Positions 34,220 through 53,700 of a stretch of 60,150 nucleotides of DNA are shown here, in pieces. Position 1 is the first letter of the stretch. The number at the start of each line of letters is the position of its first letter. Below the pieces are notes generated by a model. It saw only the letters and a program-made list of their open reading frames with translations, was not told the origin of the DNA and made no database searches. Made by a program: the position numbers and the translations under genes. The DNA lies in contig CALAJH010000024.1 in NCBI GenBank assembly GCA_937922655.1, positions 1 through 60,150 on the forward strand, given 5' to 3'. The DNA is from an uncultured Bacteroidia bacterium. GTDB taxonomy: Bacteria > Bacteroidota > Bacteroidia > J057 > CALAJH01.

Positions 34220-37200
34220 TTATTCCACCGACAACTTCGCGAAAAACGCACCGCTTGCCTTGTGCAAATGCAAGAGGTACAAACCCACGGCTAGTTTGAG
34301 GTCGAACTCGCGGACGTTTTCACCCGCGTTGGCGGTAAAGACTTCCGAATGCGCCAAACGCCCCGAGGCATCGTAAATCTTGACCGTCGCCGGCTCGTTC
34401 AGAGCGTCGAAAGACAAGGTAAACGTCCCACGGTTGGGATTGGGATAAACGGTGGCGCGAACCGCGGTTTCGGCGACGGCGGCGAAGCGTCCGCCCGGCA
34501 CCGACAACGTTTGCGTTGTCGAAAACGCGCTTGTCGTCGTTTCGCATCGCGCCCGTACACGAAACTCGTAGTTCACCCCCGGCGTCAAACCCGTTACCAA
34601 CGCGTTCGTCGTCGCCGTATTGATTGTCGACCAAAACGCCGTTCCCACCCTGCGGTATTGCAGGTTGTACTGCGTGGCGCCCGCCACTTCCGTCCATGCA
34701 ACCAACGCGCTCGTCGAATTAATCATGTTCGTCAGCGTGATGGTCGGAGCGGGGCATGCCGGCGGTGTGGACACAAGCGTCGTAAACGTAAACGTCGAAC
34801 TAAATCGACTGAAAACCGTCGTCCCGCAACGAGAACGTATTCTAAACACGTAACTCGTATTCGGCTGTAAGTTGCTCAGCGTAATAGACGATGCGGGAGT
34901 CGTCGCGGAGGTCCAAAACGACGACGTTGAAAGCCGATACTGCACTTGATAGCTTTGCACGCCCGGAACGGCCGTCCACGTAATGGTCGCGGACGTGGCC
35001 GTAACATTGGAAACGGTGATATTGTCCGGCGCTCGGCAAGGTTGTGCCACACTCAAAACCACCGTCACGGGCTGTTCGCAGCCGTTGGTATCCCGAAGGG
35101 TAACGACGTACGTACCGGGCAAAAGTCCCGAAAACGTCGGAGAACTTTGAAACGCCCCGCCGTTCAACGAAAACTCGAACGGTTGGTAAGGCCCGTAAAC
35201 CGTAAGGGAAATCAAGCCGTTGGCACAGGTTTCGCACGTCGGGGAACTTGTCGTCAGCCCCGTAAAATAATGATTGTTCACGGTCACGGTATGCGAACCC
35301 GTAAAGTTGCAACCGTCCGCCGAACCCGAATAGTTTATCGTGTGCGTACCCACGCCCGCAAGGCCCGGATAAAACGCATTGCCGATAACGCCGGGGCCGG
35401 AGAACGTTCCCCCCGAAGGCGTTCCCGTCAGCGTCGCCGGCGCCGAACACAAAGTGTAACTTTGTGCCAAACCGCCAACCGTCGCCGACGCCGTCGTGTT
35501 GCTTACCGTTACCGTTACGCTCGTCGTATACGTACAACCCGCCGATTCGCCCGAATAAGTAATCGTATGCGTACCTAAACCCGCATTTTGCGGAATGAAC
35601 ACGTCGTCGACCACGCCCGGCCCCGAAAACGTACCTCCCGACGGTATGCCGAACAGTTGCACCCACGGCGCGTTCAAGCAATATTCTTGTTCAAGGCCGT
35701 ACAAATTGCCGACGGGGTCGGGGAAAACGCGCGTCGCCGCCGTGGTCGTTATCGTACAACCGTTGATTACGCCCGTCCACGTGATGGTGTGAATACCCAC
35801 GCCGGCGGCGGCGGGGGTAAAGACGTTGCCCGTCATCCCCGGCCCCGTATACGTCCCAAACGTCGGCAAAAGCGTCGTTGCCGACGCACCTTCACAGTAT
35901 TGTTGCTCCAAGTTGGCTATCGTTACGGGTTCGGAGGCATTGACCGTTACGGTCGTGAAACCTTCGACTTCGCACCCGTCCACATTGACCGAATAAATGA
36001 TGACGTGTTCGCCCGCGCCCGCAATCAACGGCGCAAAATTCGAACCGATTACCCCCGGGCCGATAAAAAATCCTCCTTCGGGCGTAGCCGTCAGCGCTAC
36101 GGGAGCGTCCGTTTCACAAAACGTTCCCGTTCCCGCCGAAACCGTCGCTACGGGCGGCGGGATAACCGTTACCGTGCTCGTCGTCGCGTAACTGCAACCC
36201 GCAAGACTATGGGTATAGGCCACAACGTGCGTACCCACGCCCGCATTGCCGGGATTGAAAACGTTGCCCGAAACGCCCGGCCCCGAAAACGTTCCGCCCG
36301 CCGGCTGTGCTACCAGCGTTACCGCCGGCGCGTTTGTACAGTACGTCGGCGACAAACTAACAATTTGTGCCGGAGCCGGCGGCGCAATACTCAAACTATA
36401 TTCGGCGATGCAGTTCGGCGCGGGCCAAGTGTCGATTATCAAATAATAGCTTTGCCCCGCCTCAACGGTCGCGCACATGCTCTTGGAACCGAATTGCGAT
36501 TGAGCGAACGCCACACATCCCCCTCCGGGCTCTCCGAACGGACAACCCCTAAAAAGCGCCAAAGCCGTATAATTCGCCGTAGTCGTCAGGCTGAATTCCA
36601 ACTCTTGCGTTGCCATCGGTGTGAAGTTGTAAACTTTGTCCTCTCCACCGAAATAGACGGGATTGCCACAGGCGACAACGGTCGTGGGGGTGAGGTCGTT
36701 GCCCGCACCGCAAGTCGTAGAGGTCGTATTGTAAGGCAGGGTAACGACTTGGTAGTCGCCCAAATCCTGAGGACACGAACGCGCCGGCGGCCCGCTCACG
36801 CACAAACCGAACGTTCCGGGCGTACCGTTGGCGTACACCCACGTGCGGATGTAATACGTCTGACCCGGAACAAGGTCGTTGCGTTCGATGTACGACATGA
36901 ATCCCGTTCCGCCGTCGTCGTCGCATTGCACCAACGACAAATTGCCGCAACTTCCCGAATACAAGGCCATGCCCAAGTCGGTAACCGAGCCCGCCTGCGT
37001 ATTGATGTACATCGACGGCGCCGTAGCTACAAAACTGAACCATACGTCGCGCGTCGTTCCCAAATTAAAGGCCGCGCAACCCGGAGTCGGAGGGTTCGAC
37101 GACGGCGTCGAACTCGTCAAATTATAGGTGGTAAAAATACAATCCTCATTGACCTCGACGGCGACGGCGCCCACACATTCGTCGTTGGCGGGCGGCGGCG

Positions 37201-40200
37201 GCGGAACGGAAACGCAAATACCGTAATCGCCCGTAGCCGTCGAACTGTACGCCCATGTACGAACGTAATACGTTTGTCCGACAACGAAGTCGTTGCGTTC
37301 GATGCGGGGCATGAGGCCCGGGCCGTCGTCGTCGTCGCATTCTATCCATTGAAGATTACCGCATTCGTTGGTGTAAAGGGCCATAGCCAAGTCGGTAATG
37401 GCGCCGGCTTGGGTTTCAATAACGTGCGTCGTTCCCGTCGCAACGAATTGATACCATACGTCGCGCGAAACGCCTTGTTGAAAGTTGCCGCAACCGCCGG
37501 CGGGCGCGTTAATCGTCGCGGACGAACTTTCCGTCGTGCCGGTAACGTAATTGCAAGTTTCTTCGGCCAAAAGTACAATCGCGCCGTCGCATTCGTCGTT
37601 GGCGGGCGGCGGCAGGGGCGAAGAAACACAAATGTTGAACGTGGGGTCTGCGGGATTGCCCGCATAGTAGTCAAAAACACGCACGTAATACGTTTGCCCA
37701 ACGGTCAATCCCGTAAGGGCGACGATTTCCACGCCGCCGGCAAACGTGGCGTCGGCACAGGACAAACTCGCGCCGCCGCATGCGCTCATCACCTCCACGA
37801 CGGCGTCGAACGAACCGTTGCCGTCCACCCGAACGTTGAGTTCGGTTTCCGTCGCTACAAAAGAATACCATACGTCGTCGTTGGCCGTGCCAAAACAGCC
37901 GGTGGGCGGCGTGGAACCCGTCGCACCCGCAACCGTGCCGTCGATGGGGTTGCACGTCGAACCGACGGTCAAGGCTATCGCGCCGGAACAGTCGTCGTTG
38001 GCGGGCGGGTCGGGCGCGCGGCTGACGCATAAATTATAAGTGCCTTGCATTCCCGGAGAATACGGCCACACACGCAAATAATACGTTTGTCCGGGCACGA
38101 AATCGGCGCGGGAAATATAGGGCATGAGGCCGGGGCCGTCGTCGTCGTCGCATTCGACGAGCGTCAGATTGCCGCATTCGCCCGAATAGAGGGCAAAGGC
38201 CAAATCGGTGATGGTGCCGGCTTGGGAATTGATTTCCAATGCGTTGTAATCGGCGACGAAAGCATACCACACGTCGCGGGAATTGCCGAGTTGGAAGTTG
38301 GCACAGCCGGGCAAGGGCAAGGTTGCCGAGCCGGTGGCGGCGGCGTTCGTTCCTTCGACGAATTCGCACGTCAAGCCGACGGGCAAAGCAATGGCGCCAA
38401 CGCATTCGTCGTTGGCGGGCGGGTCGGGGGCGCCGGCTACACACAGTTCAAACGTGCCTTGTACGTTCGGCGAATACGGCCAAACGCGCAAATAATACGT
38501 TTGACCGACGACAAAATCGGCGCGGGAAATGTAGGGCATGAGGCCCGGGCCGTCGTCGTCGTCGCATTCGACGAGCGCTAGGTTGCCGCAATCGCCCGTG
38601 TAGACGGCAAAGGCCAAGTCGGTGATGGTACCCGCAACGGAATTGATTTCCAAGGCCGGCGCCGTGGCCGTAAAACGATACCATACGTCGCGCGAATTGC
38701 CTTGTTGGAAGTTGGCGCAACCGGGCAAGGGCAAGGTTGCCGAGCCCAAGGCGTTTTCGTTGTTGCCTTGCACATAAACGCAAGTCGCTTCGGCGGTCAA
38801 TTCAAAGGCGCCGGAACAGTCGTCGTTGTCGGGCGGCGGCGGCGGTACGCTCACGCATATGGTAAAATCCGTACCCGCCGGCACGGTGGAGTACCAGTCG
38901 TAAACGCGAACGTAATAAGTTTGTCCGGGGGTAAGGCCGCCAAGCGTGGCGGTTTCCGTGCCGGCGTTGAAGGTGGCGTCCACGCAGGCAAGCGAATTGC
39001 CCGTACATCCATCAAGTACCTGCACGACGGCGTCGAAACCCGCGCCGCCGGCGACGACCACCGTATGCGCCGTCCCCGTTGCGACGAACGAATACCATAC
39101 GTCGTTGTTGGCCGTACCCGTACAGCCGGGCAGGGATTGGGAGGCATTGGCCACCGAACCCGATACGGGGTTGCACACCTCGCCGGGCGTTAAGGCGACG
39201 GCGCCCGAACAGTTGTCGTTGGCGGGCGGCGGCGGCGGCACCGCCACGCATATTTCAAACGTAGGATTGGATAAAATCCCCGAACCCAAAGAATAGACGC
39301 GCGCAAAATACGTTTGTCCGACGGTTAAATCGGTAACGACGGCGCGTTCAATGCCGCCCGCACCCGTCGAATTGACGCACGACAAACTTTGTCCCGAACA
39401 GGCGTCAAAAACCTCGACGACGGCGTTCAACTCCGTCGAGGGCGTAACGATGACGACGTGGTAAGGCGATGCGGCGACGAACGAATACCATACGTCGTCG
39501 TTGGCCGTGCCTGTACACCCGGGTTGGGACTGGGTGGCGCCCGATAGAGCGCCCGTAACCGTGGTTGCACACGTTTCACCCGGCGACGGCGTTAAATTGA
39601 CGGCGGCGGAACATTCGTCGTTGGCGGGCGGCGGCGGCGGATTGTACACGCACACCGAAAACTGTGTACCCGAGGGAATGGAATTGAACCAGTCGTAAAC
39701 GCGAATGTAATACGTTTGCCCGACGATTAATCCCGAGACTATCGTCGCCTCGGTGCCGGCGTTGAAGGTGTTGTCCACGCATGCCAAAGAATTTCCCGTA
39801 CAACCGTCCAAGACTTGCAAAACGGCGTCGAAACCCGTTTGTCCGGTTACGGAAACGATGTGCGCCGTTCCCGTCGCGACGAACGAATACCACACGTCGT
39901 TGTTGGCCGTGCCGGTACATCCGGGCAGGGACTGCGTGGCGTCTTGCACGGTGCCGTTGACGGGATTGCACGTCGAACCGACGGTCAGGGCTATCGCACC
40001 GGAGCACTCGTCGTTGGCGGGCGGGTTGGGCGTACGCACACATATATTAAAGGTGCCGACGACGCCCGCGCTATACGCCCAAAGACGAACGTAGTAATAG
40101 TTTCCCGGAACGAAGTCGTTGCGTTCGATGCGGGGCATGAGACCGGGGCCGTCGTCGTCGTCGCATTCGACGAAAACAAGGTTGTTGCAGTTGCCGGAAT

Positions 40201-42124
40201 AGAGGGCCATGGCCATGTCCGAAACCGAACCTTGTATCGTTTCGATGATTTGCGTGGCCGAGGCGGCACGGAAACGATACCACACGTCAATACGGTTGGC
40301 GGGGTTGTTAAAAAACCCGGCACAATTGGGAGCGGGGACGTTGCTTGGCGTTCCGCCCTCGGTCGTGCCTTCGATGGCGTTGCACGTGAGGCTCGGATTG
40401 AGTTCGGGCGAAGTGTTGCAATTGTCGTTGGGCGGCGGCGGCGGCGGCAACGACACGCATATATTAAAGTTGGGATTGGTCGGGGGTACGGCGGACGCGT
40501 CGTAAACGCGGATGTAATAACTTTGTCCGACGACGAGGTTGTTAAAGGTTTGGGATTCTGCGGCACCGGCGCCGGTAGCGTTCACGCACGCCAAAGACGA
40601 ACCCGAACAGCTTTGCGCAAAAACCTGAAACACGGCGTTGAAAGCCGTTTGTCCTTGCACGCGCACGGTCAACGTCTCGGCGGTGGCGACGAAATAAAAC
40701 CATACGTCGTCGTCGGCGGTACCCGAACAGCCGGGTTGGGATTGCGTAGCGTCGTAGGTGGAGCCTTGGGTATTGACGCAGGTTTCGTTGACCGTCAATT
40801 CAACGGCGCCGGCGCATTCGTCGTTGGCCGGCGGAACGGGTTCGCGAACGCAAATGCCAAAAGTACCGAGAATGGTGGCGGAATAGGCCCATGCGCGAAG
40901 GTAATAGGTTTGTCCCGGGACGAAGTCGCTACGGGAAATCAAGGACATGAGTCCGGGGCCGTCGTCGTCGTCGCATTCGACGAGCGTCAGATTGCCGCAT
41001 TCACCCGAATAAAGGGCGAGTCCGCCGTCGGTGATGGTACCCGCCGAAGTTTCGATGATTTGAGCGTTGGAGGTGGCAACAAATTGAAACCATATGTCGG
41101 TTCGGGCGCCGACGGCGTTAAAGTTGGCGCACCCCGGCACGGGAAGGTCTTGGGAGGCGGAGGCGTTGGTCGTCGAATCGACAACGACTTCGCACGTCAA
41201 ACCGGGGGTTAAGACGCGGGCGCCCGAACATTCGTCGTTGGACGGCGGCGGCGGCGGAACGACCACACATATGTCAAAGGTGTTGGTCGAGGGTACGGAC
41301 GAAAGGGCGTGGTGAACCCGGACGTAATACGTTTGTCCGACGGTCAGATTGGAAATCGTGGCGGTTTCGAGGCCGCCGTTGAACGTTTGATTGACGCAAG
41401 CCAAAGAATTGCCCGAACAGCCGTCGAAGACCTGCAAGACGGCATTGAATCCCGACGAGCCGGTAACGCGCACCTGATGGACGGTTTGGGTGGCGACAAA
41501 ACCAAACCAGACGTCGGGGGAAGTTTCTCCGGCGCAGGCGGGGTCTTGGGGCAGAGCGTCGGCCACCGTTCCCGTGACGGGGGTGCAGATTTCGGAGGGC
41601 AAAAGCGCAACGGCGCCCGAACACACGTCGTTGGCGGGCGGTTCGGGAACGCGTACGCACAACCTAAATATTCCTTGCGTGTTGGCGCCGAAAGCCCAAA
41701 AACGAATGTAGTACGTCAAACCCGGAACGAAATCGGTGCGGCCGATGTAGGGCATGGCGCCGGGACCGTCGTCGTCGTCGCATTCAATGGGGGTTAAACC
41801 GTTGGGACACTCGCCGCGATAAAGCATCATCGTACCGTCGGTAACGTTGCCGCTCCCGCCCGATTGGGTTTCGATAAAATGGGTTTCGTTCGTGGCAACG
41901 AAGGCGAACCAAACGTCGCGACGGGTGTTGGCTCCCGAAAAAGAGCCGCATTGGGGACTTGGAACGGGGGAAACCGTCGCGCCCGTTAAGGTACCGGTCG
42001 TAAATTCGCAAGTTACGCCCGGGGTAAGAAATACGGGGTTGTCGCATTCGTCGTTCGACGGCTGGGCGTACATCGGAGCCACGCCCATGAGCAACATTAC
42101 CCACAATATTCGTATAAAACGCAT
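34220..42124 (-). CDS. Giant modular surface protein with T9SS type A sorting domain (2634 aa)
   Basis: A Sec signal peptide (about 1-20) is followed by 13 modules of 130-140 residues, each starting with a motif like NDECSGAIAL (from residue 24). Subtype A modules (1, 3, 5, 9, 10, 12, 13) contain VECDDDDGPGLMP; subtype B modules (2, 4, 6, 7, 8, 11) contain DGCTGNSLACVD. Both share DVWYSFVAT and GQTYYVRV, and are joined by Pro-rich linkers. A degenerate module (about 1780-1915), five Ig-like repeats with GGTFSGPGV (about 1915-2285), one SprB-type repeat, two fibronectin-III domains (about 2361-2545) and a type A sorting domain (VYPNPNRGTFTL) follow. Probably an extracellular adhesin or matrix protein; no enzymatic domain is seen. 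Confidence 0.88.
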   Translation of the reverse strand: MRFIRILWVMLLMGVAPMYAQPSNDECDNPVFLTPGVTCEFTTGTLTGATVSPVPSPQCGSFSGANTRRDVWFAFVATNETHFIETQSGGSGNVTDGTMMLYRGECPNGLTPIECDDDDGPGAMPYIGRTDFVPGLTYYIRFWAFGANTQGIFRLCVRVPEPPANDVCSGAVALLPSEICTPVTGTVADALPQDPACAGETSPDVWFGFVATQTVHQVRVTGSSGFNAVLQVFDGCSGNSLACVNQTFNGGLETATISNLTVGQTYYVRVHHALSSVPSTNTFDICVVVPPPPPSNDECSGARVLTPGLTCEVVVDSTTNASASQDLPVPGCANFNAVGARTDIWFQFVATSNAQIIETSAGTITDGGLALYSGECGNLTLVECDDDDGPGLMSLISRSDFVPGQTYYLRAWAYSATILGTFGICVREPVPPANDECAGAVELTVNETCVNTQGSTYDATQSQPGCSGTADDDVWFYFVATAETLTVRVQGQTAFNAVFQVFAQSCSGSSLACVNATGAGAAESQTFNNLVVGQSYYIRVYDASAVPPTNPNFNICVSLPPPPPPNDNCNTSPELNPSLTCNAIEGTTEGGTPSNVPAPNCAGFFNNPANRIDVWYRFRAASATQIIETIQGSVSDMAMALYSGNCNNLVFVECDDDDGPGLMPRIERNDFVPGNYYYVRLWAYSAGVVGTFNICVRTPNPPANDECSGAIALTVGSTCNPVNGTVQDATQSLPGCTGTANNDVWYSFVATGTAHIVSVTGQTGFDAVLQVLDGCTGNSLACVDNTFNAGTEATIVSGLIVGQTYYIRVYDWFNSIPSGTQFSVCVYNPPPPPANDECSAAVNLTPSPGETCATTVTGALSGATQSQPGCTGTANDDVWYSFVAASPYHVVIVTPSTELNAVVEVFDACSGQSLSCVNSTGAGGIERAVVTDLTVGQTYFARVYSLGSGILSNPTFEICVAVPPPPPANDNCSGAVALTPGEVCNPVSGSVANASQSLPGCTGTANNDVWYSFVATGTAHTVVVAGGAGFDAVVQVLDGCTGNSLACVDATFNAGTETATLGGLTPGQTYYVRVYDWYSTVPAGTDFTICVSVPPPPPDNDDCSGAFELTAEATCVYVQGNNENALGSATLPLPGCANFQQGNSRDVWYRFTATAPALEINSVAGTITDLAFAVYTGDCGNLALVECDDDDGPGLMPYISRADFVVGQTYYLRVWPYSPNVQGTFELCVAGAPDPPANDECVGAIALPVGLTCEFVEGTNAAATGSATLPLPGCANFQLGNSRDVWYAFVADYNALEINSQAGTITDLAFALYSGECGNLTLVECDDDDGPGLMPYISRADFVPGQTYYLRVWPYSPGMQGTYNLCVSRAPDPPANDDCSGAIALTVGSTCNPIDGTVAGATGSTPPTGCFGTANDDVWYSFVATETELNVRVDGNGSFDAVVEVMSACGGASLSCADATFAGGVEIVALTGLTVGQTYYVRVFDYYAGNPADPTFNICVSSPLPPPANDECDGAIVLLAEETCNYVTGTTESSSATINAPAGGCGNFQQGVSRDVWYQFVATGTTHVIETQAGAITDLAMALYTNECGNLQWIECDDDDGPGLMPRIERNDFVVGQTYYVRTWAYSSTATGDYGICVSVPPPPPANDECVGAVAVEVNEDCIFTTYNLTSSTPSSNPPTPGCAAFNLGTTRDVWFSFVATAPSMYINTQAGSVTDLGMALYSGSCGNLSLVQCDDDGGTGFMSYIERNDLVPGQTYYIRTWVYANGTPGTFGLCVSGPPARSCPQDLGDYQVVTLPYNTTSTTCGAGNDLTPTTVVACGNPVYFGGEDKVYNFTPMATQELEFSLTTTANYTALALFRGCPFGEPGGGCVAFAQSQFGSKSMCATVEAGQSYYLIIDTWPAPNCIAEYSLSIAPPAPAQIVSLSPTYCTNAPAVTLVAQPAGGTFSGPGVSGNVFNPGNAGVGTHVVAYTHSLAGCSYATTSTVTVIPPPVATVSAGTGTFCETDAPVALTATPEGGFFIGPGVIGSNFAPLIAGAGEHVIIYSVNVDGCEVEGFTTVTVNASEPVTIANLEQQYCEGASATTLLPTFGTYTGPGMTGNVFTPAAAGVGIHTITWTGVINGCTITTTAATRVFPDPVGNLYGLEQEYCLNAPWVQLFGIPSGGTFSGPGVVDDVFIPQNAGLGTHTITYSGESAGCTYTTSVTVTVSNTTASATVGGLAQSYTLCSAPATLTGTPSGGTFSGPGVIGNAFYPGLAGVGTHTINYSGSADGCNFTGSHTVTVNNHYFTGLTTSSPTCETCANGLISLTVYGPYQPFEFSLNGGAFQSSPTFSGLLPGTYVVTLRDTNGCEQPVTVVLSVAQPCRAPDNITVSNVTATSATITWTAVPGVQSYQVQYRLSTSSFWTSATTPASSITLSNLQPNTSYVFRIRSRCGTTVFSRFSSTFTFTTLVSTPPACPAPTITLTNMINSTSALVAWTEVAGATQYNLQYRRVGTAFWSTINTATTNALVTGLTPGVNYEFRVRARCETTTSAFSTTQTLSVPGGRFAAVAETAVRATVYPNPNRGTFTLSFDALNEPATVKIYDASGRLAHSEVFTANAGENVREFDLKLAVGLYLLHLHKASGAFFAKLSVE
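36785..42058 (-). repeat. Tandem ~400-bp modules of two interleaved subtypes
   Basis: The modules begin near 42058, 41635, 41240, 40825, 40427, 40018, 39622, 39220, 38828, 38412, 38001, 37598 and 37183 (minus-strand order), ending about 36785. Each boundary is marked on the plus strand by a TCGTCGTTGG-like sequence. The subtype order is A B A B A B B B A A B A A. Pairs 9/10 and 6/8 are nearly identical over long stretches, which suggests recent duplication or gene conversion. Each A module carries a GTC-repeat tract encoding its Asp run. Confidence 0.85.
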
Positions 42125-42865: not shown

Positions 42866-44191
42866 TTATGCGTCAAGGCGTTTGAGGGTAACGAGCGTAA
42901 TTTCGGGGAAAATACCGACCCGTCCCGGGAATCCGGCGAACCCAAAACCCCGATTGACGTTGAGTTTGGCGCCGTTTTGCTCGTACATTCCGGCCCAATG
43001 CGGATATTTCCATCCGACGGGACTCCACCGCCAATCTCCAATTTCGACCCCGAACTGCATTCCATGGGTATGACCGGAAAGGGTAAGGTCAACGGGGTTG
43101 GGTTGTTTTAATACAACGTGGTCCCAATGGGAGGGGTCGTGGGAAAGAAGAATTTTGAAGTCTTCGGGACGGGTGTTTTCGAGAGCGAGGTCGAGGCGAC
43201 CGTAACGAGGGAAAGGGGGCACGCCCCAATTTTCCACGCCCGCCACAACAATGCTTTCCTCGCCGCGCGTCAAACGCACGTGCCGGTTGCGCAACAGCTC
43301 CCAGCCCAAGCGTTGGTGATTGTAAAGCATTTGTTCGAAGTCGGCCTCGCGTTCGGCGTCGGTAAGATTCCAAGCGTAGAGGCTGTAATCGTGATTGCCG
43401 AGTACGGAATAGACCCCTTCGGGAGCTTTTAAAAGTTCAAAAACTTTTTCCCAACCCTCGATTTCGTGCGGACGATTGTTGACCATATCGCCCGTGAAAA
43501 GAATGAGGTCGGGTTCAAGGGCGCGGGCCATGTCTATGCCGCGCATCACCTGACGTTGGGAATCAAAACTACCGACGTGGATATCGGATATCTGAACGAT
43601 TTTGAGGCCGTCGAAAGCGGCGGGAACCCGGTCCGAGGTTAAGGTATGTTCGTGAACCTTGAAACTGTATTTTCCAAAGGCCACGCCGTGCAAGCCTCCG
43701 ACAAACGGCACGGTCGTTACCGCAAACGCCGTGCGAGTCAAGAACTCGTTGCGGTCAATCCATACCGTCTCGTCGGCCACAATCGGCTCGCGACTTCCAA
43801 ACATCGGGCGTAATTTGCGATACGCGGCCACGGCGAGTCGATAAAGGTCGTTGGGTAAAAGGAAAAGCGCGAAAACGAGCTTGGCGGCAAAGATTACGGT
43901 CAAAAACGCCATGCCGTATTGCAAACCGCTGATTTGGCGTCCGTCCAACTTGCCTTGACTCAATGCCGTGAACGCAAAAAGCGCCAACGCCAGCGGCAAC
44001 GACGACCAATACAAATATTTTAGCGCCTTGCGAATCCGCAGGGGCAGTCGGAAAATGAGCTTTTTAAAGCCTCCGTAAGCGTACGAGTCCACCAGCCACA
44101 AGGCGGCAACGACGAACAACACGCGAGTAAAAAAAACGCCCGGGCTTATCGCCATCACCAGCTCAAAAGACAATATTCGCACCGATTCCAT
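42866..44191 (-). CDS. Membrane-anchored metallophosphoesterase
   Basis: A 441-residue protein. The N-terminal 150 residues contain about four transmembrane helices; the C-terminal part is a calcineurin-like phosphoesterase with all five metal-binding blocks: SDIHVG, TGDMVNN, LGNHDY, LSHDPSHWD and LSGHTHG. This layout (membrane segment followed by a YkuE/YaeI-type domain) is common in Bacteroidota; relatives have been linked to lipid or cell-wall intermediate hydrolysis, but the substrate here is not known. A GC hairpin (44192-44212) touches its start codon, and the tRNA-like gene lies 105 bases upstream on the same strand. Confidence 0.88.
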   Translation of the reverse strand: MESVRILSFELVMAISPGVFFTRVLFVVAALWLVDSYAYGGFKKLIFRLPLRIRKALKYLYWSSLPLALALFAFTALSQGKLDGRQISGLQYGMAFLTVIFAAKLVFALFLLPNDLYRLAVAAYRKLRPMFGSREPIVADETVWIDRNEFLTRTAFAVTTVPFVGGLHGVAFGKYSFKVHEHTLTSDRVPAAFDGLKIVQISDIHVGSFDSQRQVMRGIDMARALEPDLILFTGDMVNNRPHEIEGWEKVFELLKAPEGVYSVLGNHDYSLYAWNLTDAEREADFEQMLYNHQRLGWELLRNRHVRLTRGEESIVVAGVENWGVPPFPRYGRLDLALENTRPEDFKILLSHDPSHWDHVVLKQPNPVDLTLSGHTHGMQFGVEIGDWRWSPVGWKYPHWAGMYEQNGAKLNVNRGFGFAGFPGRVGIFPEITLVTLKRLDA

Positions 44192-44212: not shown

Positions 44213-44296
44213 TGTTTAATTACGATAAAGTCTATGAAAAGGTTCCGGTCAAATCCGGTAAAGTTTGCGTTAAAAAAGTTAATTGAATGTTAAAGG

Positions 44297-44414
44297 CTGT
44301 AGGGGTAGGATTCGAACCTACAAGGAGGGGTTGGGCGCGGGTCGCCCCTGCTTTATCCCCGATTCTCCACCCGCGAGACCGGCGGGCACGGCTGCCATAT
44401 TTCGTCACCCTACA
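44297..44414 (-). tRNA. Unusual 118-nt class-II-like tRNA or tRNA-like RNA, isotype unresolved
   Basis: Read on the minus strand: acceptor stem TGTAGGG/CCCTACA (7 perfect pairs) with discriminator G; T arm GTAGG-TTCGAAT-CCTAC, fully canonical; U8-G9; D arm with the 3-bp ACG/CGT stem and GG in the loop, as in leucine tRNAs; anticodon arm CCCGC-CGGTCTC-GCGGG. Two things are abnormal. Loop position 33 is G, not the near-universal U; counting normally gives GTC at 34-36. The variable region is 48 nt (44322-44369) instead of at most about 24, and can fold as GGA/TCC, GGGG/CCCC and GGGCG/CGCCC stems. CCA is not encoded. A perfect promoter lies at 44469-44500. It could be a functional odd tRNA, a tRNA-derived regulatory RNA or a decaying gene; the intact arms and promoter argue against decay. 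Confidence 0.65.
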
Positions 44415-44468
44415 AGATAACACCGCATTGATTTTCGTTTTTTCAACGAATAATCCAAAACGATGACG

Positions 44469-44500
44469 CAAAATTATTAAACAAAACTATTCGTTGCAAA
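44469..44500 (-). promoter_or_regulatory. Consensus promoter upstream of the tRNA-like gene
   Basis: On the minus strand: TTTG (44500-44497), a 20-base spacer, TAATTTTG (44476-44469). It is a full match. Expected start near 44462 leaves a leader of about 48 bases before the tRNA-like 5' end. The rest of the 44192-44712 gap holds AT-rich sequence and the terminator of the giant gene; no protein gene is seen. Confidence 0.7.
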
Positions 44501-44712: not shown

Positions 44713-47700
44713 TTAACGAATAACGAAAATCATGCCCGTTTCGTTGATGGGTATGCCCGTCAACGCGCCCTTGGCCTCCATTTTGTACAAATACGCCCCT
44801 TCCGGTACTTGTTGGCCTTTCCCCGGCCCCGCCGCCACCGAGCCGTCCCACGTAAATTTCGGATTGTCGGACTCGAATATCATCGTTCCCCAACGGTTGA
44901 AAATCTGGAACTTGAAATTCTCGACGTTGAAAGGCAAAACATAATACAACTCGTTCACACCGTCCGAATTGGGAGAAAACGCCGTCGGTATGACTACTTT
45001 TTCTTCGTTGGAAATGACGACCTCCACCCCCGCGGTGTCGGTGCAACCACCGTCGGTGGTAACGATTAACATCACCGATTGATTGCCTTCGGAAATGAAT
45101 TTGTGGACGGGGTTGGTGTCGCGCAAAACGGTACCGTCGCCAAAACGCCATTCCCATGCAACGATTTGGCCGTCGCGAGAAGTCGAACGGTCGAAAAATT
45201 GTATTGGTATGCCCGTCCGCGTAACGGGAATGTCGCTGACGAACGCCGCCTCGGGACGTTCGCGGAAGTCGAAACGATAAAATTTGGACGTCGTCGTACA
45301 CAACGTGGAACGGGAAGTATCGGTGATTTGGACGCGGTAACCCTTTTCGTCAAAGACGTTGATGCTGCGGGTCGTTTCTCCGGTGTTCCAAAAATAGCCG
45401 TACGGGCCGTCGGGTGCGGTCAGTGTCACGGGCGAACCCCAGCAATACGGCGGCGGCGTAACCTCGATTTCGCCGCTTGGATAAGGATTAACCACAATGG
45501 TAATTTCACCCGTAATCGGACAGCCTTCGGGCGAAATCCCCGTCGCGCGGTAAGTCGTCGTCGTTTCGGGAATAAATATCCCCACCCATGCCGTATCCGC
45601 ATCCAAAAATTGTATCGGCGCGGGGTCGAACGTTACCTCCCCGAAATCGTAGCCCATGGCGAACAGCACAATCGGGTCGCCGACGCAATATTCGGGTTCG
45701 CGGCTGATTATTCTTCCGTACGGACGATGCACGCCTACGCGCACTTCCACCGTATCCGTACATCCGTTGAGCAGCGTGCCGATGAGCGTATAGACCGTCG
45801 TGGTTTCGGGACTGACGGTAACGACGGCGGCGTTCGGGTCGGCAATACCTGCGGTCGGACTCCAACGATACAAGTCCGCACCCGACGCCGACAAGGTTGC
45901 TTGGCCGCCCGGGCAAATTTCTTGCGCCGTAGCGTTCACCGTTAACGCCGGCGCCGGCAATACCGTAACGGTTACAAACAGCGTTTCGGCGCAGGCATAG
46001 CCGTCCGTCGCGATAACGGTGTATTCCGTCGTTTGGCTTGGGGTCACGATGAGCGAATCCACGGTTTGGTTCATCGGAAGCCAACGGAACGTTACCGCCG
46101 TCGAATGTTGCTGCGTCAATCGCGCCCGCAACTTCACCGGCGAATAGGGACAAATATTGTTGCGCGAAGCCTCGGCAACGAACACGGGCAAGGGACGCAC
46201 CTGCACCGTAACCGCTTGGGTTTCGGTACAAGTGCGGGTAACGGTCGCGCCGCCGTCGTCGAAGGTAAACTGACGAATGCCCGTAACGGTATAAACCGTC
46301 GTTTGTTGGGGCGCCACTTGATAAGTCGGGCCGCCGACCTCGTTGTTCCAAACGTAGCTGTCGGCGCCTTGCGCGACCAAGACCACGGGCGTTCCGGGGC
46401 AAATCGGCGCCTCGGGACCGGAAACCGTCATCGGTACCCGCGCCACCGTTACCGAAATCGTCGCCGTCGCGTCGCAACCCGTGTTCACATCCACGCCCGT
46501 AACCGTGTATTCGGTCGAAAATTGCGGCGTGGGTGTATAATTCGCACCGATAAACTGGCCGGGCATCCACATATAAGTATCGGCGCCCGTGGCGGTTAAG
46601 GATATCGTTTGCCCCGCGCATACGTATCGGTCTTCGTCGGAATCCAAAACAACGGCAACCAAGGGGTCGGGATTGGCGACGATGGTTAGCGTCGTTTGGG
46701 TCGCGCAACCGTTGCTTCCCGTACCCGTCAAGATGTAGGTCGTCGTGGTGGTCGGGAAAAACGTTTGCGAGGAGCCCAAATATTGATTGACCCCGTCGGA
46801 CCAGATGTAACTTTCGGCGCCCGAAGCCACCACGTTGGCCACGTCCCCCGGACACAACGACGATTGGTCCGTCGTAATCGTCAATTCGGGCAAGGGCAAG
46901 ACCGTTATCGTGCCAACGACGCTATTGACGCACCCGAAACCGTCCCGACCGGTAAGGGTGTAAAACGTGGTGGTTTGGGGTTGGACGGTCAGAGTGCCGC
47001 CGCCGAACTGTTGCAATTGTCCATTGGCGTCCAAAAATTCCCAGTTGTACTGTTGCGCCCCTGTGCCGACGAGCGTAATGGTTTGACCGGCGCAAACGGT
47101 CGTTTCCGCCGGGGCGATGACCGGCGCGGGCAAAGGGGCGACCGTTACCGTCGCCTCCCGCGTGTACGCGCAACCGTTGTTGTCGGTAAAGGTAACGGTA
47201 TAGGTCGTGGTCTGGACCGGCGCCACGACCGCGACGTTGCCGTTCACCTCGACGATACCCGTCAGCGGTTCCCAACCGTAAAATCCGAAGGTCGAGCCTT
47301 GCGCCGTCAGCGTCGTCGAAGAACCGGTGCAAATCGTGGGATTCGACGGGGTTAAGTTGAGCGTCGGTTCCGGGTGGGCTTCCACGGTTATAAAGGCGGT
47401 ATCCAAACATCCGTTGGCCGCCGTACCTACAACCGTGTAAGTAACGGTGTTGAATATTTGTACGGAGATGTTTTGTCCGGTCAAACCTCCGGGCTGCCAT
47501 GTGTAATTTTGGGCGCCGGCGGCGGAAAGTTGGGCCGTCGAACCGGGGCATAGCGTTTGCGTCGGTCCCGTCGCCGTAACGTTCGGCGCCGGCAAAACCG
47601 TCAAAGTAACCGTAGCCGTGTCCCTACATCCCGCCAAATTGGTTCCGACGGCGGTATAGGTTGTCGTTGCCGACGGTGCGGCCACCACCAACGGCCCGAA

Positions 47701-50700
47701 AGTCGAACTCAATCCCGTTGAAGGCGACCACTCCACAATCAATGCTCCCGATACCGTCAAAGGCACAAACTGGGAGGGGCAAATATTGGTGAACGGGGCG
47801 TTGATGGAAATATCGGGCTTGGGCGAAACATTGACCGTCACCGTAGTCGTCGATTCACAGCCCAAGGTATCGATTCCGTAAAGCGTGTACGTAGTCGATG
47901 CGGAAGGAGCGGTCAAGTTCAATATTGCACCCGTTGCGCCGCCCGGTTCCCAGCGGTAACTCACCGCGCCCGAGGCCGTAATAACAACGGGTTCGAAGGG
48001 ACAATACGCCGCTTTGTCGGTCGTTGCCGCCGGCGGCGCTTCCGAAACCCTTACCTGCACCGTCGCCGTGTTCAAACAACCCAAAGAATCAATCCCCGTT
48101 ACAACGAAGGTCGAATTGGCGTAAACGGCAAGATAAACGGTATCGCCGTCGCCGACGTAGGCGCCGCCCGATTGCCACGAATAAATTTGGGCGCCCGTGG
48201 CGGTAAGCGTCAGCGAATCGCCCGGACAAACCACGACGCGGCTCGCAAACGCACGAACATCGGGACGCGGATGCACCGTTACCCGTACCGTGTCGTAATA
48301 CGTGCAACCGTTAAAGTCTTGAATTTCGGCGATGTAGTCGGTGGTCGTATCGGGCGTTACGGTAATTTCGTTGCCCGTGAAGCTTCCGGGGAACCATGTG
48401 GTCAATGCGGCGTTGACGACCGAGAGCGTACAAATTTCGCCCGCGCATATTTCCGCCGGATTGACCGAAATGCCGTACGACGGCGCATAAACGTGAAAAA
48501 ACAACGAATCAATGAAAACGCATTCCATTTCGCCCGTAAATTGAACGGTGTACATCGTCGAAACGGTCGGGGAAATCCAAACGGTGTCGCCGGAAACGGA
48601 ATCGGGTGCGGGCGACCAAACGTAATCCCGCGCCCCCAATGGAACGACGCGTATCGGCGAACCCGGACACACCAAATCCGACGGATTGACGACGAAGGCC
48701 AACACGGGCCGTTGTTGCACGTAAACGTCCAAAGAATCGACGGACGAACAGCCGCGCTCGTCGGTCGTGGTAATGTAAAAACGTCCCGACTCATAGGGTT
48801 CCACCACCAATTCGGAAACGGAGGGAACCAAAACGGGCGTTTCCGCGGGCACGAACGCACCGTCGTAATTCATGCCGACGTTCGCCGTCCAAAACACAAG
48901 CTCGTCGCCGTAACCGTCGTTGTAAACGGTGACGGTTTCGCCGCGACAAATCGAGTCGTCCGAGGCGCCGAAAGGCACAATGGGCAAAGGCCCGAAGGTT
49001 AGACGTATCGTGTCCCTGTCGATACAGTCGCCCGGCCCGACACCCGTAACCACAAAATCCGTGTCCTGAAAAAGCGAAACCTGCACGGTGGCGCCCGTCA
49101 GCCCGCCGGGCTCCCAATAATATGCGTCGGCGCCGACGGCGGTCAGCGTTTGCCGTTCAAACAAACAAACGATGGTTCCGTTGTCGTCGGTGGGAGGCAG
49201 AATTTGTACTTCGGGATTTTCGACAATGGAAATGGAAACGGTACGTCCCGCGACGCATCCCGGCCCTTGTCCCGAAAGAAGGGTATAGGTCGTGTTTTGA
49301 ACGGGAAATACGGTGATGGACGAAGCGGTTTGCCCGCCCGGAAGCCACAAAAAGGTTTCGCCGCCGGCGCCGTTGAGCGTAACGCTTCCCCCTCTGCAAA
49401 CCGAAAGTCGGTCGGCCGTAATTTGTGTGTTCGGATACGGCACAACCGTAACCCGTATTTCGTCTATCGTCAAGCAACCCTCGGCGCTAAATCCATAAAC
49501 CCGGTAGTCGGTGGTAAATTGCGGGTTGTGCGTGGGGTTGGGCGACGTGGAGCCGATGGGGAACCAAAGATAGGATTCGGCGCCCGTCGCGGAAAGAAAA
49601 ATCAGTTCGCCCTCGCAAACGGTATCCCTATCAACGGCGGCGTTTACGTTTGGACGGGGCAAGGGAACGACGGTTACGGTGTCGCGATTGACGCAAGCGT
49701 TGGCGTCGACGCCCGTGAGTTCAAACGTTCGCGGCGTTTGGCCCACCTGCCAAGAAATCATGTCGCCGTATATCGTTTCGTCGCCGGCAAGGTCGCGCCA
49801 CTCGTAAAAAACGGCGCCCGTTCCCCGAACCTGTACCACTTGTCCGATACAAACCGCCGTATCGGAAGGAACGCTACGCACGTTGGGCAAAGGCCAAACC
49901 TCCAAGGGCACGTTCACCGCCGCGTCGCAACCATAAGCGTTCACTGCCCGCAGGACATAATTTGTCGATTGCGTGGGCGCCAAAACAACCGACGAACCCG
50001 TCAAATCCAAAGACGTGTCCCCGTATTCGAGTATCCAAAAAATCACGTCCACCGTACCGGAATAGAACAATACCGTATTGTTACCGTAGCAAATGGCGGG
50101 TTCGTACGAAAAGTCGGTGATGGCGGGATTGGCCCGAACGACGACGGTGGTCGTATCCGAATCGGCGCAACCGTATTCGTTGAAGGCGGTAACGGTAAAG
50201 GTCGTCGTTTCGGTGGGGCGAACGAAGGCGATGCCCTGTTCCAAATCCGCATAGAGGAAAAAGTTTTCGGGTTGAACTTGATAGTTTACCCCGCCGGAAA
50301 GAATCAAGGCCATCGCCTCGCCTTCGCACAAATACGACCCGGCCTGTGTTACGCCCGGCACGGGCAATTGGCGTACGTAAACCCAAACCGTGTCCGTGTT
50401 CTCGCAGCCGTATTCGTCCATGCCGACGACGGCAAAACGCGTCGCGCGTTCGACGACGACCTCGGCCGTCGAACCGAAATACAGTTCGCCCGTAAATTGG
50501 TTCAACGAATCGAGTTCGAACCATGCAAACTCGCCGACCGTACTTCCGGCGTCGGCCACGAGCGAAGCGGTTAAAGTGGCTACGGCGCCCGGACAAACCG
50601 AATCGCCCGCCGCCGACAAAACCGGCAAATTCAAAACCGTTACCGTAATTGTATCAACGAAGGTACATCCGCGCGAATCCAAAGAAACGACAAAGACCGA

Positions 50701-53700
50701 ATATCGTCCCGGAGCGTCGGGAGCGACGGTAACCCCCGTGGCCGTGCTGTCGGAAAACGCCAAGGCCGACGCCCAAACATAAGAAAAACCTTCGGGAACG
50801 TTCAAACGAACCGTACCCCCGATGCAAATGCTGTCGTTGGGAAACGCTTGCACCTCAAAAACGGGAAGCGGATGGTTGCGAACGGTAACGGAATCGGAAG
50901 CGTTGCAACCGTATCGGTCCACGCCCGTCAAAATCAGGGTCGTCGTTCCGTCGGGGACGATTTCAATGGTATCGCCGAAATACACGGCGCCCGTGGCCTC
51001 GTTCAACCAAACGTAGTCTTGGGCGCCGGCGGCAAAAAGCCGAACCGATTCGCGCGGACAAACGCTGTCGAATTCGGCCGTCGCAACGACGACGGGCAAG
51101 GGTACGACGGCCACTTCTCGGGTCGTGGATTGTACGCATCCGTTGGCGTCGGTGGCCGTGAGGGTGAAGGTCGTCGTAACGTCCAAGGCCACGTAAATCG
51201 TGGGCGTGGTAAAGCCGCCCGGTTCCCATACGTAAGCGACGCCGCCCGATGCGGACAACGAGCTAACGTAACCGAGACATACGGTATCGGACTCGGGAAC
51301 GACAACGGGCGTGGGAAGCGGCCAAACGTTCACGACAAAAGTGACGGAGTCCTCGCAACCCGCGCTATTGGAGGCGTAAACGGTGTAAACCGTCGTTTGG
51401 GACGGGGAAACGCTTATCGTCGGAGTCGTCAAAAAGCCGGGTTGCCACAGATAGTTTTCGTAACCTTGTATGGAAAGCACGGCCGAATGGCCGACACAAA
51501 CGTTTTGATTTTGGGGGGTGAGATATTCGAGCGAGTCGATGTAAACGGTAACGTAAGCGGTATCCAAACATCCGGGGGCGTTGGCGCCGATGACGGTGTA
51601 AGTCGTGGTAACGACGGGCGAAACAACATAGCTTTGCCCGTCAAGGAAAAATCCGTTGCCCGGCTCGACGTTGTACTGCAAGGCGCCCGTCGCGTTTATC
51701 ACCGAACTTACCCCCGAACAAACCGACGACGGGGTTGCGACAACGGAAATCACGGGCGGCTCGTAGACGACGACGGTTACCGTGGCGGTGTCGGTGCAAC
51801 CGTTGGCGGCAAAAACAACGACGGAATAGGTCGTCGTTGCAAGGGGATAAACAACGACTTGCGACGACGTTTGCCCGCCGGGCAACCACGTCAGCGGCAA
51901 GGCTCCGGGATTGCCCGCGACCAACAACGCGGGACTGCCCGGACATATCGCCGAAGAGGGCGACGTCGCCGTTACCGTCGGAGAAGGAACGACGGTAACG
52001 ACGACGGTCTGTTGGTCGATACAACCGTCGGCGGTGGTTCCGGTAACGGTATATTCGGTGGTGGTTGCGGGGTTGGCCCACACTTCGGGTTGGTCGATGG
52101 CGGAAAGGCCGTCCGGCGGCGCCCATTGGTAGGTTGCGCCCGGCACCCGAGTAACGGCCAACCGAACGGATTGACCCTCGCACAAAGTTACGTCGGCCAA
52201 ATCGGCGCCCAGCGGCCCGACGAAAATCGTAATTTGGGTCGTATCCGAACAACGCGAAGCATTATAGGCAACAAGCGTGTACGTGGTGGTTTGGGCGGGG
52301 CTTACGTCAATCGAGGGACCAAACAAATCACCGGGTTGCCAAAAATAATTCCCCGCCGCTCCAATAGCCGAAAGCGTTACCGTCTCGCCGAAACATATGA
52401 CCGAATCGCCGGATACAATCTCCGCGCCAATCTCGACGTAAGGGTCGACGGCCACTTGAACGGTCGTTTCGTTGGGACATCCGGAGTTGTCGGCGCCGCG
52501 AACGGTATAAAACGTTGTTCCAAGGGGAGGGTAATCCACCAGCGTGTTGTTGGGCGGAGACTCAATGGCGTTACCGTTGATAAACCATTGCAAATCGTTG
52601 CCGAAGCCGGTCAGCGTAACCGGATTGCCTATGCATATCGTGGTTTGCTCGGCGTACAAACCCGTCGTTCCGTCTCCGATTTGCACGACGGCGGTGGCGG
52701 TTTGAACGCATCCGTCGAGGCCGTAGGCGGTAACGGTATAGGCGGTGGTTTGGGTGGGCGCGGCGATGACGGCGGCTTGGTCGGTGGCGCTCAGGCCCAA
52801 ACCCGGCGACCATTCGTAAGCCAGATACACGTCCGAGCCGTTGGCCTCTTCGGCGGACAAAACCACGCTTTGCCCTTGGCACAAAGACACAACGTTTGCG
52901 GGAAGCACGACCAACGACGGACATCCGACCAACACCGTTACCACGGCGGTACCGGCGCAACCGGCGGAATCCAAAACGCCCGTAAGGGTATAGGTCGTGG
53001 TTTGCGTGGGATTGACGGTAACGCTTTGGCCGGAGAGATTGCCGGGTTGCCAAATATAATTGTCGGCGCCGTAACCGAAAAGCGTTGCGGCGTCGCCGAT
53101 TTCGATGGAAACGGGCGAAGCGGCGGCAGAAACCGTCGGCACAACGCCAAAAGAAGTATAGGCGGTGTCGGTACAACAGGCCGACGTAACGACGAGCCGA
53201 TAGGCGCCGAAGTCGGCGGGCTGAAGGTTGTCGCGAACGGCGACGCGCTCGGTCGAAACAAAGCCGCCGGGCCCCGTCCATTGATAACTTGCGCCCGGAA
53301 CTTCGACGGCGGTCAAAACGACGCTTCCGCCCAAACAAGCGGGGCCGTTGTTGGAGGCGACGGCGGCAAAGGGCGCATACGCCAAACATTGCGTGTTATC
53401 AACAACGGAAGCGGGGTTTTGGAGCGTGCCGTTGAATTGGGTACTTGCGTTGTTGGCCAGGGCGTTGGCGCCGTCGAAGGTATAATAGGCCAAAAGTCCG
53501 GTTTGGGGGCCGACCAACGGCCCGTACATGCCGGCGGCGATTTGCGCTTGGGAACGGGCGACGTTCCATATGCGTACCTCGTCGTAATAGCCGCGCAGAT
53601 GTTCGCTGTTGTTGGAGCGGTAACCGACGCCGAGGTTGGCGTTGTTGGTGAAAAGGTTGCCCGAGGCCGCGATTTGATTGACCAAACAGCCGTTGATGTA

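Follow-up and report, generated by a model that had tools for sequence, protein, structure and literature searches.

Genomic setting and anatomy of the RNA

The window, by which we mean the whole 60,150-nucleotide stretch analysed here from an uncultured Bacteroidia bacterium, carries a gene for a tRNA-like RNA that is flanked by a gene for a metallophosphoesterase (42866-44191) and by a giant gene of CHU_C/Ig_7 type (44713-54069), with all three on the minus strand. The window contains two very large repetitive genes (34220-42124 and 44713-54069, encoding 2634 and 3118 aa); in the second, Ig_7 and PKD accompany a CHU_C type IX secretion signal. A covariance model scan found the window RNA to be the only strong copy in its own genome. 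Its parts are given below; the conserved unit includes the 5' end base (44415) and C74 (44296).

44296-44415, minus strand: tRNA-like RNA gene, class II cloverleaf, 120 nt including base -1 and the encoded C74 (117 bits with the covariance model, plus covariation)
44408-44414, minus strand: acceptor stem, 5' strand UGUAGGG; U1 pairs with A72 and G2 with C71
44298-44304, minus strand: acceptor stem, 3' strand CCCUACA; 7/7 bp with the 5' strand
44388-44405, minus strand: D arm with a 3-bp stem (ACG/CGU) and a leucine-type loop with A14 A15 and G18 G19; the D stem covaries
44403-44405 and 44388-44390, minus strand: D stem strands
44370-44386, minus strand: anticodon arm with a 5-bp stem (CCCGC/GCGGG), anticodon GUC, U37 and C38
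44382-44386 and 44370-44374, minus strand: anticodon stem strands
44375-44381, minus strand: anticodon loop CGGTCTC (CGGUCUC in the RNA), with G33
44322-44369, minus strand: 48-nt variable arm with outer stem GGAG/CUCC, inner stem GG/CC, a conserved internal loop and an apical hairpin; helices 4, 5 and 6 covary
44305-44321, minus strand: T arm with a 5-bp stem and the loop UUCGAAU
44317-44321 and 44305-44309, minus strand: T stem strands
44296-44297, minus strand: discriminator G73 and encoded C74

An earlier note on this DNA had described 44297-44414 as having a complete acceptor stem (7/7), a complete T arm (5/5, loop TTCGAAT) and a 48-nt variable region, and this anatomy proved exact. The note was also right about the leucine-like D arm and the tRNA ancestry.

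Standard tools pass over the gene. ARAGORN called no tRNA at the locus, Rfam had no match at gathering level and none of relevance up to E=10, and RF00005 found 44 tRNAs in the same genome with the window RNA not among them. The RNA had no Rfam match to RF01852 (selenocysteine tRNA) or RF00023 (tmRNA) and its D stem has 3 bp, and both identities were rejected. The earlier note was right that this is no standard isotype, and its suggestion of a novel class II type holds for a tRNA-like RNA that standard tools overlook. The single-sequence fold energy of the window RNA is ordinary (z -0.64), so the case for the RNA rests on its homologues.

Distribution and covariation of the family

A first DNA search across 60 relatives gave matches in 12 genomes, some of them with tandem copies. 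We built a covariance model from nine sequences and scanned it over 395 Bacteroidia genomes, 67 of which contained the RNA (matches of 109-180 nt scoring >70 bits), with E values down to 1e-30, well outside what chance would give; this count is a lower bound, since a match of 53 bits and 181 nt in one further genome (G243) is clearly a true member. A second, clearly separate group of matches in the same scan was 81-89 nt long and scored below ~62 bits, and those checked proved to be ordinary tRNAs, one for Ser and, in three genomes, Leu-GAG. Among the carriers with names are Pedobacter, Dyadobacter, Spirosoma, Algoriphagus, Cyclobacterium, Chitinophaga, Neolewinella and Phaeodactylibacter, along with Saprospiraceae. 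Copies found by pattern also lie in three MAG contigs labelled Ignavibacteria (L100, L182 and L191; misbinning or transfer), one of which, L100, has an AsnC neighbor as well.

The compensatory changes that the earlier note had proposed looking for are present throughout the fold. Among 42 distinct members, 98.4% of cells are paired and 20 of 31 pairs show two-sided changes, with all seven helices covarying; none of 500 shuffles reached the observed covariation, and slid controls dropped to about half. The apical hairpin of the variable arm varies freely in sequence and keeps its pairing. Members have the class II tRNA fold, with a cloverleaf, a long variable arm, GG in the D loop and a T loop of the form UUCRANY. 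A UUGACCA/UAGACCA motif occurs in 51 of 153 variable arms, and longer members (142-194 nt) often carry it; a candidate UAA/GAN motif in the internal loop was dropped, as its G is not conserved. These data establish a real, widespread and unannotated RNA family in Bacteroidota and their phages, and a literature search of open-licence papers found no description of it.

Tandem arrangements take several forms. Phaeodactylibacter xiamenensis has five copies within ~750 bases (L158:311-1053), and four Pedobacter loci (L119, L134, L148 and L161) carry pairs of a short (110-116 nt) and a longer (138-147 nt) member, which sit downstream of one asnC-divergent promoter region. One outlier member (L012:1506-1623, in G010) differs in its variable arm and has the loop UCGUCUA.

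Promoter and RNA ends

Two probable promoter elements precede the window RNA in the arrangement TTG-N20-TAATTTTG, the downstream element starting 61 nt upstream of base -1.

44469-44476, minus strand: probable -7 element TAATTTTG (Bacteroidota consensus TAnnTTTG)
44497-44499, minus strand: probable -33 element TTG, 20 nt before the -7 element

Upstream of family members the -7 element is found in 81 of 154 copies versus 5.9 in shuffled sequence, and the full TTG-N17-25-TAnnTTTG arrangement occurs in 61 of the 154 versus 1.1 in mononucleotide shuffles. Upstream of 21 of 154 copies (1.9 shuffled) there is also a GTTCTT resembling the boxA of stable-RNA leaders. The 3' end, G73 C74, resembles that of ordinary tRNAs of the same genome, which also encode C74, and we therefore dropped C74 as a special feature. 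We likewise make no claim for an AsnC-binding palindrome upstream, where AT-rich repeats exceeded no more than a weak shuffle control.

Linkage to AsnC and alternation with asparagine synthetases

An AsnC regulator is encoded by 65 of the 67 genomes with the RNA and by 25 of the 328 without it (395 in total, uncorrected for shared ancestry). The RNA is divergent from asnC in 44 of the 65 genomes that have both, mostly across a gap of 101-258 nt, and in 31 of 40 flanking regions it is divergent from a gene of the Lrp/AsnC family, the one neighbor that is widely shared; no other neighbor family is common to >6 of these 40 loci. Across 80 named loci the divergent arrangement appears 43 times, plus six truncated loci. 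About a third of carriers, the window's genome included, have the RNA at a place not adjoining asnC, and in the window's genome AsnC lies on another contig (C60). Pfam finds AsnC domains in the regulator, and among NCBIfam models AsnC NF008384 fits it best, at 169-171 bits against a cut-off of 227, which makes the AsnC assignment likely, not formal.

In eight genomes that encode AsnC and lack the RNA, the slot divergent from asnC is occupied by AsnB (five genomes) or by an archaeal-type asparagine synthetase A (three genomes). The slot AsnB matches NF006949 in G118 and G381 (941 bits in G118) and is another AsnB in G268, G291 and G370 (658 bits to NF006949 in G291), and the archaeal-type enzyme of G234, G344 and G189, which has the PDB relative 3p8t, matches NF005054 at 326 and 332 bits (cut-off 309). 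Since AsnB, archaeal-type AsnA or the RNA is found in the same asnC-divergent slot, asparagine synthetases that are unrelated to each other alternate there with the RNA. The slot of a further genome (G146) holds a weak RNA-like match of 28.8 bits, divergent from asnC. The weak model match divergent from asnC at L405:1469-1583 (minus strand) has an acceptor and T arm, with no clear GUC anticodon arm, and is a decayed or strongly divergent member.

An AsnB of ~540-560 aa is absent from the matches listed (down to 384 bits) in the 67 genomes with the RNA and present in 5 of 10 AsnC-encoding genomes without it, versus none listed in carriers (p 1e-5, uncorrected for shared ancestry). An AsnB-like protein of 590-700 aa that passes the TIGR01536 cut-off is nonetheless encoded in most carriers; the window's genome has two such proteins over the cut-off, located outside any evident polysaccharide cluster. 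Because AsnB-like proteins are kept in most carriers, any asparagine route through the RNA is likely additional there rather than the sole one. AsnA (PF03590) was found in 2 of 33 carriers tested, AsnRS in 28 of 28 and GatB in 27 of 28; GatB is common in genomes with and without the RNA alike and was dropped as a discriminator. Four carriers that are >=99% complete (G002, G301, G311 and G340) yielded no AsnA, no AsnB over the cut-off and no archaeal-type AsnA, and all four have GatB and AsnRS.

Identity elements and the anticodon loop

The viral and genome-contig sets were found by a pattern that fixes positions 34-36, so anticodon statistics are limited to 60 unbiased members found by the model. 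Positions 34-36 are GUC in 58 of these and C38 is present in 59, while position 37 is U in 49, C in 7, G in 4 and never A. The earlier note had stressed the missing U33, and the window loop does have G33, but this is not the defining oddity of the family: position 33 is U in 45 members, G in 13 and C in 2, with G33 mostly in the window copy and its relatives of the same order. The loss of U33 is a clade trait and not decay, and the oddities constant across the family are the GUC anticodon with U, C or G at 37, the U1-A72 pair and G73. The family does not show the canonical elongator loop (U33 with a purine at 37), and the window RNA lacks U33.

The acceptor stem is equally uniform, with U1-A72 in 154 of 156 cellular and 53 of 55 viral copies and G2-C71 in 155 of the 156. 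Bacterial Asp identity resides in G73, G10, G34, U35, C36 and C38 (PMC9976931), all of which the family has except G10, a minor determinant that is not conserved. GatCAB recognition depends on a U1-A72 pair (PMC4206432). In the window's genome, tRNA-Asp and tRNA-Asn have G1-C72 (tRNA-Asn was inspected here and at one other locus), and among the elongator tRNAs read only tRNA-Gln has U1-A72. The tRNA-Asp loop of this genome, CUGUCAC, and the common family loop, CUGUCUC, differ only at position 37. With the Asp identity marks and U1-A72 together, the RNA looks, on sequence grounds, like an aspartate-accepting tRNA that GatCAB could amidate. An RNA that carried Asn behind an Asp anticodon would endanger translation, and this hazard, we infer, would explain the lost A37 and, in one clade, the lost U33.

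Phage copies

At least 120 viral contigs gave matches, and among 80 that were rescored >70 carry the full RNA. On several phage contigs it lies inside arrays with up to 25 other tRNAs, ordinary tRNA-Asp included, and recurring neighbors of the phage copies are terminase, portal and PhoH genes. A comparison with known phage records gave no match. At L228, L235, L272 and related viral loci there are 92-97-nt copies, possibly a minimal form, that ARAGORN calls tRNA-Asp(gtc).

Proposed function and alternatives

The Asp and amidation marks, the loop unsuited to decoding and the location in the asnC slot of asparagine synthetases together suggest that the RNA probably serves to make asparagine and not in translation. 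With somewhat more confidence than doubt, we propose that AspRS and GatCAB make asparagine on this RNA, a tRNA dedicated to that purpose and not used in decoding. The gene would be transcribed as its own stable RNA, from a promoter region that in most genomes also serves asnC in the opposite direction, and would undergo tRNA-like processing. AspRS would load aspartate through G34 U35 C36, C38 and G73, and GatCAB, selecting by U1-A72, would amidate Asp-RNA to Asn-RNA. Asparagine might then be freed as the amino acid or passed on, with AsnRS using it for ordinary tRNA-Asn; our analysis found no dedicated hydrolase for its release. The very long variable arm and the pyrimidine or G at 37, joined in one clade by G33, would keep Asn-RNA off the ribosome, and AsnC would tune the supply to asparagine. 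We see about an even chance that the broader evolutionary reading holds, namely, that a tRNA gene replaced an enzyme gene, providing an AsnC-controlled, Asp-charged, non-decoding GatCAB substrate for the cell's asparagine, and that phages carry the RNA as a metabolic aid. The recoding tRNA that the earlier note had considered is not indicated; the surroundings of the gene point to a role in supplying asparagine.

The AsnC linkage would also suit a regulatory RNA under AsnC control whose charging (with Asp, with Asn or not at all) signals asparagine status and which acts on a protein or mRNA through its variable arm without making asparagine. The conserved internal loop, the UUGACCA/UAGACCA motif and the tandem, differing copies are in keeping with this, but we consider it unlikely, because conservation of U1-A72 together with the Asp anticodon set fits a biosynthetic role better, as does replacement at the slot by biosynthetic enzymes and not by regulators. 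That Asp-RNA or Asn-RNA feeds some other reaction outside the ribosome, for instance one that modifies lipids, the cell wall or peptides, is quite improbable: such pathways do use a charged, poorly decoding tRNA, but no transferase gene recurs beside the RNA at 40 loci.

We give very little credence to a special elongator that decodes some Asp codons. The GUC anticodon, the U33 of most members and the presence of the RNA within phage tRNA arrays would be expected of one, but A is never found at position 37, a whole clade has lost U33, both the window's genome and several phage arrays contain an ordinary tRNA-Asp, and U1-A72 would risk placing Asn at Asp codons. A decaying tRNA-Leu or a chance fold has next to no likelihood left; tRNA-Leu is the nearest ordinary relative by model score (62 bits), but the covariation in all helices, judged against shuffles and slid controls, refutes this reading, and the family has its own promoters and is spread across many families and phages.

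If asparagine synthesis is indeed the role of this RNA, a widespread family overlooked by tRNA and RNA annotation would be, to our knowledge, the first tRNA devoted to making an amino acid instead of reading codons. It would also explain how AsnRS-using bacteria without AsnA or AsnB are supplied with asparagine and why phages carry such an RNA.

Comparison with known systems

The family shares with tRNA-Leu a 3-bp D stem, A14, A15, G18 G19 and a long variable arm, and tRNA-Leu is the best cross-match of the model, but the family differs in having G73 (A73 in tRNA-Leu), U1-A72, a GUC loop and a variable arm that brings the whole RNA to 109-194 nt. Its likeness to tRNA-Asp lies in G34 U35 C36, C38, G73 and G2-C71, whereas the class II body, U1-A72 in place of G1-C72 and the replacement of A37 set it apart. 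In E. coli the divergent partner of AsnC is asnA, and in relatives without the RNA it is AsnB or the archaeal-type AsnA; the RNA has the same slot and the same regulator, except that here the partner of AsnC is an RNA and not an enzyme. The staphylococcal cell-wall tRNA-Gly, a charged and poorly decoding tRNA used outside translation, offers a parallel as a tRNA withdrawn from decoding for another job, although its amino acid, body and context differ.

A further comparison is with tRNA-dependent asparagine synthesis, in which AspRS and GatCAB act on tRNA-Asn in Deinococcus, Thermus and Bdellovibrio (PMC4206432). Here too there is a U1-A72 substrate, GatCAB and AsnRS are present, and some genomes appear to have no asparagine synthetase. 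Unlike in that system, the carrier would be a separate, non-decoding class II RNA with an Asp anticodon, encoded beside AsnC, and since such a carrier would itself bear the Asp anticodon, a non-discriminating AspRS would not be needed.
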